Below the pieces are notes generated by a model that saw only the letters and a program-made list of their open reading frames with translations, was not told the DNA's origin and ran no database searches. Position numbers and translations under genes: made by a program. A DNA stretch of 11,276 bases, from positions 1 through 11,276 of the forward strand of contig JAFYRC010000012.1 of NCBI GenBank assembly GCA_017547065.1, written 5' to 3'. The stretch is from Tidjanibacter sp. Lineage in GTDB: Bacteria > Bacteroidota > Bacteroidia > Bacteroidales > Rikenellaceae. Each line of letters starts with the position of its first letter. The stretch's first letter is position 1. Below, one piece after another: positions 1 through 6,081 of this stretch.

Positions 1-498
1 ACCATTGATCATAAAGATGTTCTCGCTAGCCTGGAGAGTAATGTTCTCACCCTCTGCCTCAACTACCAAGAGTGCCTGCTGGGGGGTGAAGTGGAGCTCG
101 GTGCCGGTAGCCGAAATGGGGCCAGTTGCGCCAAACTCTACACCTTTGAGGCCTTTGGTCGAGTCGAACTTGCCGCAGAATGCATAGCAGTATTGACCGA
201 TAATGTTCTCTACGTTATCGTCGTTGCATTTGAAAACGCCAGCGCTCTCCTGTTTGAAGGTGAAAGCCAACTCTTTGCTGGTTGCCTCATCCCAGTGCCA
301 AATAACAATCTCGTCGTTGTCATCCCAAGCAGCGGTGAAGTCGTTCTCGTTCACAGCAACCCTATCGATGTCGGCAAGCGAAGCGGTGATGGTAAGACCC
401 TCGCCAGCGGGGGTTGTGTTATCCAAATTCTGATTGTCACAAGCTACTGCGCCCAAAGCAACAATAGCAGCAGTCAAAATGTAAAAAATCTTTTTCAT
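1..498 (-). CDS. Fimbrillin-like surface lipoprotein, partial (runs off left edge)
   Basis: The minus-strand frame is open from an ATG at 498 to the left edge, giving 166 residues without a stop, so the C-terminus is missing. It begins MKKIFYILTAAIVALGAVAC: a short basic start, a hydrophobic stretch and a lipobox (AVAC, Cys20), so it is probably an outer-membrane-directed lipoprotein. The mature part is acidic and looks all-beta. It carries a segment AAWDDNDEIVIW (about residues 47-58), which resembles the W-x-x-(G/N)-D-x-I strand common near the N-terminus of Bacteroidales fimbrillin/Mfa-like lipoproteins. It has no catalytic motif that I recognise. A 46-aa peptide gene lies 37 nt upstream on the same strand, probably co-transcribed. 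Lipoprotein status is well supported by the sequence. Membership in the fimbrillin-like superfamily is inference from short pattern similarity. It could instead be another Bacteroidales beta-sandwich lipoprotein. Confidence 0.8.
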   Translation of the reverse strand, partial: MKKIFYILTAAIVALGAVACDNQNLDNTTPAGEGLTITASLADIDRVAVNENDFTAAWDDNDEIVIWHWDEATSKELAFTFKQESAGVFKCNDDNVENIIGQYCYAFCGKFDSTKGLKGVEFGATGPISATGTELHFTPQQALLVVEAEGENITLQASENIFMING

Positions 499-535: not shown

Positions 536-676
536 TTACTGCCAGTCGTCCGAATAGTCGCCACCATTCTCGAAACCGCCAACGGTGAAGCCATCAGATG
601 TAACACTCTGTGCGATACCCTGCTCTACCTCCAACTCGACGAGGTCAATTGCAGGCTCTGTGTACTGTTTTTTCAT
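536..676 (-). CDS. Small acidic MKKxYxxPxI peptide (46 aa), unknown function
   Basis: This is an intact 46-codon ORF with ATG at 676 and TAA at 536-538. Residues 1-20 read MKKQYTEPAIDLVELEVEQG; the rest continues as IAQSVTSDGF, then a Gly/Asn/Asp-rich end finishing in GGDYSDDWQ. It has no signal peptide or membrane segment. The N-terminus (M-K-K-x-Y-x-x-P-x-I, then V-E-L-E) and the glycine/acid-rich tail match a type of short hypothetical protein I have repeatedly seen in Bacteroidales next to fimbrillin-like lipoproteins; its function is unknown to me. A TAAATTTG -7 box lies 36 nt upstream, and a lipoprotein gene starts 37 nt downstream on the same strand, so this is probably the first gene of a small operon. 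Codon sense and the match to a recurrent pattern argue against a chance ORF. A role as secreted peptide, chaperone, regulator or modified peptide cannot be chosen from sequence. Confidence 0.75.
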   Translation of the reverse strand: MKKQYTEPAIDLVELEVEQGIAQSVTSDGFTVGGFENGGDYSDDWQ

Positions 677-711: not shown

Positions 712-719
712 CAAATTTA
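712..719 (-). promoter_or_regulatory. Bacteroidetes-type -7 box for the small peptide/lipoprotein genes
   Basis: On the minus strand this reads TAAATTTG, an exact match to the Bacteroidetes primary sigma -7 consensus TAnnTTTG. It would place transcription start around 705, giving a leader of about 30 nt before the ATG at 676. No clear TTTG -33 element sits 19-21 nt upstream; that position reads GAAGAAAA. The call therefore rests on the -7 box and its position. The rest of the 171-nt gap to the next gene (677-847) shows only a weak 4-bp hairpin. Confidence 0.45.
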
Positions 720-5471: not shown

Positions 5472-5732
5472 CTATGGTACGGGATCGTAGCCACTTCCGC
5501 CCCACGGATGACACCTCAGTAGTCTTTTCAGAGTGAGCCAACCGCCCTTCAAGGGGCCATATTTGCGTAGTGCTTCGATGGCATACTGGGAGCACGTCGG
5601 GGTGAACCTACACGATGGCGGTTTGAGGGGCGAAATGCAGATCTGGTAGAACCTTACAAGCGCCACAAAGGGTAGGCTCAAAACCTTCCTACAACCCGCG
5701 CGAAATTTTTGCCAACACACTTTCGACTCCAC
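5472..5732 (-). CDS. yidD: Membrane protein insertion efficiency factor YidD
   Basis: 86 aa, typical for YidD (PF01809, formerly DUF37). The signature is complete: [19 protein letters not shown] (33-51) and [14 protein letters not shown] at the C-terminus (73-86), with the conserved Cys residues 41, 47 and 74. The N-terminus (about 16-32) is an amphipathic/hydrophobic helix that attaches to the inner membrane. The family assists YidC-dependent membrane protein insertion (family knowledge). The ATG at 5732 gives a 44-nt overlap with the end of rnpA. No later ATG precedes the conserved core, so the overlap appears real and suggests translational coupling. The gene ends about 33 nt from the convergent terminator. 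Confidence 0.95.
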
Positions 5733-6081
5733 GGCTCACAACTTTGTAGTCAACAATCTCCTTGGTGCTATAAATAAGGCCCATATCAACGTGCAGGCCT
5801 TTCTGCTTGGCAGCTTCGATGAGAGGGTGCTTTGCCAGGCGGTAGGCTTCGCGGGTGCGACGTTTGAGCAGGTTGCGCCCCACGGCCCTCTTGATGTTCC
5901 TCTTTGGTACCGCCACCAACACACTCACCTCGGCCTTGTCCTCGGGCCTCATCGGACGGCACTTCCACACAAAGCGGTAGGGGTAGGAAAAGCCACTCTT
6001 GCTATCCCTAAACAGGGCGTCGGCAGCTCCTCCTTTCAACCTCTCGGCCTTGGGAAATCCATATTTGGGTGTATTGGTCAT
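5689..6081 (-). CDS. rnpA: Ribonuclease P protein component
   Basis: 130 aa. The diagnostic RNR motif reads [16 protein letters not shown] (66-81), preceded by the strand [15 protein letters not shown] (50-64). This is the conserved core by which the protein binds the RNase P RNA and the pre-tRNA 5' leader during tRNA maturation. The N-terminus fits family openings with a K-x-x-R-L-K-G-like element (11-17). The gene is not next to rpmH or dnaA, as is usual in Bacteroidetes. It begins 103 nt after the hemD stop, beyond an intergenic hairpin. I found no exact TAnnTTTG box in that gap, so expression may come from read-through or an undetected promoter. The 3' end overlaps yidD by 44 nt. Confidence 0.94.

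Follow-up and report, generated by a model that had tools for sequence, protein, structure and literature searches.

The open reading frame at positions 536–676 (minus strand) of the window, which is the whole 11,276-nucleotide stretch of DNA analysed here, probably encodes an LPP-like (linear polyphosphorylated peptide-like) RiPP precursor, which would act jointly with the lipoprotein whose gene starts 37 nt downstream. Comparison of sequences across genomes established a family of such putative precursors, their common leader motif, their pairing with lipoprotein genes, and their co-occurrence and partial physical linkage with genes for a stand-alone RiPP recognition element (RRE), an HprK-like kinase, a signal-peptidase-like protease and an MsbA-like exporter.

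The peptide gene and its promoter

The ORF is intact, starts with ATG and encodes, stop codon included in the coordinates, a peptide of 46 amino acids, MKKQYTEPAIDLVELEVEQGIAQSVTSDGFTVGGFENGGDYSDDWQ. A promoter box of the Bacteroidales −7 type, TAAATTTG, which is an exact TAnnTTTG, lies at 712–719 (minus strand), with its first base 43 nt 5′ of the ATG. No −33 element was visible, TTTG being absent from the 30 nt preceding the box. The window contains seven exact −7 boxes against a shuffle mean of 4.6, with 34 of 200 shuffles reaching seven, and a single exact box is weak evidence on its own. At the homologous loci, a −7 box was found at most 120 nt upstream of the peptide gene in 26 of 92, while about 4 were expected from mononucleotide shuffles. 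The intact frame, the exact box and a two-part design, with a charged head and an acidic, Gly/Asp-rich tail, had been put forward in the original prediction and were all confirmed.

The proposed leader comprises residues 1–21 (614–676, minus strand) and contains Y5-x-x-P8-x-I10, the predicted RRE-binding motif, and V17-E18-x-G20-I21. The proposed core comprises residues 22–46 (539–613, minus strand), from AQS to SDDWQ; the boundary at residue 21/22 was placed by comparison with LppA. The codon of Ser24, the candidate phosphorylation site and counterpart of LppA S3, is at 605–607 (minus strand). Pfam, NCBIfam and Rfam gave no match for the peptide or the window, and the peptide profile had one match among solved structures, with an E-value of 0.84 that is not meaningful. 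The predicted structure of the peptide was uninformative (mean pLDDT 62, pTM 0.15, no secondary structure assigned). Elsewhere in the window, at 5472–6081 (minus strand), there are overlapping small genes resembling yidD and rnpA by eye.

Distribution and conservation of the peptide family

The window is one contig (C180) of a 1.73-Mb assembly in 322 contigs. A single-sequence protein search returned two matches only, and profiles were needed to find relatives; within the own genome, seven members were detected by single-sequence search and eleven by profile. With profiles, 16 of the 61 family genomes and 13 of 392 order-level genomes proved to have members, as did G244 outside the order. Six loci were also present in five Tidjanibacter MAGs, which suggests a Tidjanibacter or a near relative within Rikenellaceae as the host. 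Homologues thus extend well beyond the strain, as the original prediction had supposed. Up to 12 detected precursors are scattered over one genome (G068), which has one RRE.

The head is conserved as Y-x-x-P-x-[IV]-E...V-E-x-G-[IF]-A-x-S, and the consensus drawn by eye is Y-x-x-P-x-[IVL]-E-x-x-x-[VI]-x-[VL]-E-x-G-[IF]-A-x-S. Y5, P8, E18 and G20 are invariant in 38/38 aligned sequences, which for Y and P is in part a consequence of how profile searches select sequences; the seeding of profiles on exact words also inflates the conservation of VEQGIA in the resulting lists. The 92 parsed loci were chosen by a looser form of the consensus motif, and in them the A-x-S position has Ala in 78 cases and Ser in 80. 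The tails are variable, yet net acidic in all 92 loci (median −5), with 497 D/E versus 29 K/R in 2085 residues, and 73 of them have an aromatic residue among the last four. Pooled pN/pS was 0.27 for heads and 0.55 for tails, as uncorrected proportions from nine close pairs sharing members. The heads are more constrained than the tails. With this constraint and homologues outside the strain, the results that would have contradicted the original prediction did not appear.

The downstream lipoproteins

The partner lipoprotein gene of the window is at 1–498 (minus strand), beginning 37 nt past the peptide stop, and is cut by the window end, so that its N-terminal 166 codons are present, with the lipobox AVAC. 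This 166-aa fragment has no significant match in Pfam, PF13149 included, but it aligns with the 81 other downstream proteins considered below, with Cys20, Trp58 and Asp62 in common.

Neighbours were considered at 93 loci, namely all the profile matches in the own, family, order and beyond-order genomes, plus five of the six loci of the Tidjanibacter MAGs. Ninety-two loci were parsed, three of them at contig ends. A lipobox protein encoded at most 120 nt downstream on the same strand was found at 79 of the 89 parsed loci away from contig ends (80 by script, minus the wrongly flagged G016), versus 50 of 457 other ORFs of at least 100 aa in long stretches. This difference bears out the original prediction that such genes recur in Bacteroidales next to surface lipoproteins. 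The gap between peptide and lipoprotein had a median of 20 nt, and the genes overlapped or abutted in six counted cases. Two loci, L105 (183 nt) and L130 (80 nt), have lipoprotein-like neighbours that fall outside the rule. At L026 (G016:C54), a P-loop protein, zeta-toxin-like by eye, is encoded at 111 nt in place of the lipoprotein.

In the own genome, the lipoprotein gene is the next gene, 15–53 nt on, in all ten members with downstream sequence, the eleventh being cut off, and four of the ten partner lipoproteins are fimbrillin-like by profile. Taken from the other side, 4 of 12 PF13149 matches of this genome are preceded by a peptide gene; one of the others (C82) begins at a contig end and so cannot be judged in this respect. 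One own-genome partner lipoprotein (L073:4157-6202(+)) looks by eye more like an enzyme of the DUF4962/lyase type than like a fimbrillin.

Of the 86 downstream ORFs, 82 were aligned, with the omission of L026, L053, L122 and L141, which were not lipoproteins by eye. Of the aligned proteins, 81 retain the Cys of the lipid anchor, 75 Trp58, 74 Asp62 and 74 Phe89, and 32 of the 82 N-domains match PF13149 (Mfa_like_1) with E ≤ 0.01. One of the 82 matches DUF4962. Compared to fimbrillin-like PF13149 lipoproteins, the partners found here differ in that they come with a putative precursor gene in front, and some of them bear other C-terminal domains, such as a BspA-type LRR.

A match of each tail to its own lipoprotein was considered and is unsupported, as tail and lipoprotein similarities, compared for every pair among 80 loci, gave a raw Spearman coefficient of 0.033. 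This lack of co-variation argues against a strict lock-and-key interaction, and leaves capping, tagging or signalling as candidate roles.

Two adjacent peptide genes, L228 and L229 (G052:C21), have nearly identical tails, and the first 45 printed residues of the lipoproteins that follow them are identical. Judged from these sequences, the pair is evidently a recent duplication of the whole peptide–lipoprotein cassette.

Association with the RRE, kinase, protease and exporter genes

Co-occurrence was considered in a chosen set of 24 genomes. Twelve were peptide-positive, 8 from the window's family and 4 from others; the 12 peptide-negative ones were all from the window's family and at least 98% complete. 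The RRE (PF05402) was found in 12/12 positive versus 0/12 negative genomes, and the HprK-like kinase profile gave the same result in the same genomes. In the unselected family sample (n = 61), the RRE was present in 15/16 peptide-positive versus 3/45 peptide-negative genomes (Fisher 1.7e-10), and in the order sample (n = 392) in 12/13 versus 45/379 (Fisher 3.5e-10), both values being uncorrected for kinship. Within genera, the presence of peptide and RRE agreed in 2/2 genomes of g3, 5/5 of g16 and 4/5 of g22, and the agreement was weaker in g11 (1/2) and g14 (2/4).

A peptide without an RRE match was seen in G610 (99% complete) and G030 (54% complete). An RRE match without a detected peptide was recorded for three genomes from the family sample (G033, G038 and G051) and for 45 from the order sample. 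Similar RRE clusters, most of them with kinase and protease, were also observed in order genomes at L200-L207, L211, L213 and L215, where the peptide profile was negative, and candidates for more divergent precursors are present at L204:1197-1325(-), L207:4792-4929(+) and L211:2531-2728(-). The system therefore probably extends beyond the counts given here.

Twelve RRE loci were inspected for the other genes: the protease was found in 10, the kinase in 10, the MsbA-like exporter in 9 (a count that omits 26%-identity ABC matches in L163), and all four genes in 8. An NTP transferase (PF14907) adjoins the RRE in 2/12 loci, as seen with one query, and in further clusters, and it was not seen at the loci of genus g1. 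In the own genome, the genes are split between two contigs: C101 carries RRE, protease and exporter, whereas the kinase gene is truncated at the end of C148. The gene after the own-genome RRE (L158:211-1122(-)) looks by eye like a GH16-like glycosidase, while in several relatives the kinase occupies that place.

In three genomes of three different families, a precursor gene lies in or beside the cluster. In G019, of the same genus as the window, the order on one strand is peptide, lipoprotein, ABC exporter, protease, RRE, an ORF of 246 aa and kinase. In G573 it is peptide, a 1086-aa lipoprotein, RRE, NTP transferase and ABC, also on one strand, with kinase and protease not seen in the sequence retrieved. 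The G079 peptide is encoded 38 nt before a kinase–protease–RRE–NTP transferase–ABC series on the same strand; this is the unparsed locus of the 93, at which the next gene is the cluster kinase.

These data bear on the reading that the peptide is an unmodified small partner of the fimbrillin-like lipoprotein, and that the RRE cluster acts on some other substrate, being associated with the peptide by shared ancestry only. The pairing with lipoproteins is the strongest single regularity found (79/89), and there are clusters without a detected peptide, both in favour of such a reading. It is nevertheless improbable, given the agreement of peptide and RRE gain and loss within g3, g16 and mostly g22, and the three families in which a precursor gene is part of the cluster or adjoins it.

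It is similarly unlikely that the ORF is a regulatory uORF, with its translation tuning lipoprotein translation or mRNA stability and the peptide itself being inert. The short distance to the lipoprotein start, the six overlapping or abutting cases and the −7 box upstream of 26/92 loci would be in agreement with a uORF, but the conservation resides in the amino-acid pattern of the N-terminus and not near the stop, and the heads are constrained. Besides, a uORF leaves unexplained both the co-occurrence with RRE and kinase and the G079 copy placed directly before the kinase gene.

Features of the enzymes

Concerning the enzymes that would act on an LPP-like precursor, the RRE residues N35, D73 and W77 are invariant in 12/12 sequences. 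Their spacing is like that of LppB N33, D70 and F74, reported in PMC13381572 to contact the Pro and Tyr of the leader; the residues were matched by spacing alone, with LppB unaligned. In the protease, the Ser and His are invariant in 13/13, and in L162 they are 39 residues apart, as in LppS S29/H68. Its best NCBIfam match was TIGR02228, below the cut-off, and with Pfam Peptidase_S24 the own-genome protein was over the cut-off and L162 below it. The kinase sequences GESGTGKST, NDD and PWSGK are invariant in 10/10, and the match to HprK-related models is weak (TIGR04352, E 1.4e-3 and 5.8e-4, far below the cut-off). For the exporter, the best NCBIfam match was TIGR02203, below its cut-off.

Only two solved structures matched the RRE profile, TfuB1 (E 7.8e-5) and TbiB1 (E 0.37), both of them lasso B1 proteins, and Y-x-x-P-x-L is the lasso leader motif, so that the peptide could be thought of as a lasso-peptide precursor. 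Lasso peptides have a [Y/W]xxPx[L/V/I] leader motif, and the paeninodin group, as described in PMC13381572, also an HprK-like kinase and an NTP transferase. To that extent the system found here is like the paeninodin type, with an RRE leader motif, an HprK-like kinase and, in some loci, an NTP transferase. A lasso precursor is, however, very improbable. The lasso leader peptidase PF13471 (B2, transglutaminase-like) was over the cut-off in none of the 24 chosen genomes, with two weak matches below it. The peptidase found here is of a different class, and acidic residues have, by eye, no fixed place 7–9 residues past the conserved Gly/Ala. No Asn-synthetase-like cyclase was seen by eye among the ORFs listed around the RRE loci. 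An arrest peptide was rejected because the conserved part is N-terminal.

Proposed mechanism and comparison with LPPs

In the mechanism proposed for an LPP-like precursor, the Y-x-x-P-x-I leader would dock as a β-strand on the stand-alone RRE, encoded by one gene per genome. The HprK-like kinase would likely phosphorylate the conserved Ser of A-x-S (Ser24), and the signal-peptidase-like Ser/His protease would likely cut near G-[IF]-A, at residue 21/22. The MsbA-like ABC exporter would then carry the acidic core, some 25 residues long, out to the periplasm or the cell surface, where it may bind, cap or become attached to the adjacent fimbrillin-like lipoprotein. The peptide and lipoprotein genes would be co-transcribed. 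The leader-plus-cargo layout guessed in the original prediction gains support from the leader motif and the co-occurring RRE, protease, kinase and exporter, from which processing is predicted.

A broader proposal is that one RRE–protease–kinase–exporter set matures a dozen dispersed phosphopeptides, and that each core caps or decorates the neighbouring fimbrillin-like adhesin on the surface; this we regard as tentative and somewhat doubtful. If true, it would mean a RiPP class aimed at the surface proteins of the producer itself and not at competitors. Should the LPP-like reading itself hold, scattered, unannotated small ORFs of Bacteroidales would become RiPP precursors, LPP-like machinery would extend to another phylum, and many surface proteins might come under the simultaneous control of a single small enzyme cluster. 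As each precursor names a surface lipoprotein as its likely partner, the pairing would provide a genetic lead to the role of the phosphopeptide.

No paper joining fimbrillin and RiPP was found in a search of mainly openly accessible literature. Among the papers listed on HprK, signal peptidase and Bacteroid-, the term RRE appeared only in PMC13381572. The portions available of the main text of a Bacteroidales RiPP survey (PMC10352776) contain no HprK, signal peptidase or fimbri- terms, and those of an RRE survey (PMC12710340) no Bacteroid- term.

LPPs (lppAKBSDN) were described in 2026 as confined to Bacillota and frequently located close to capsule loci, and their biological role was called unknown. 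The RREs of lasso peptides and LPPs bind the leader motif YxxPx[L/V/I/F/A]; LppA is cut to a core starting AQSNWK, of which LppK phosphorylates S3, and cleavage by LppS requires the RRE (PMC13381572). Compared to that account, the system found here is similar in having a putative precursor with a conserved YxxPx[V/I] head and a variable C-terminus, a discrete RRE, an archaeal-type signal-peptidase-like leader peptidase, an HprK-like kinase, an MsbA-like exporter and, in some loci, an NTP transferase. It is also similar in the A-x-S at the predicted leader–core border (AQS in the LppA core, GI-AQS in the window). On the other hand, it differs in its Bacteroidota host, in the dispersal of the precursors, most of them followed by a lipoprotein gene, and in the uniformly acidic tails. 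The leader ends in VExG[IF]AxS and not in FET|AxS, with the distance from Tyr to Ser one residue longer. Since the leader end FET is not present, the system is called LPP-like and not LPP. Furthermore, 7 of the 92 parsed loci have Thr at the proposed phosphosite, whereas the S3T variant of LppA was not phosphorylated (PMC13381572).
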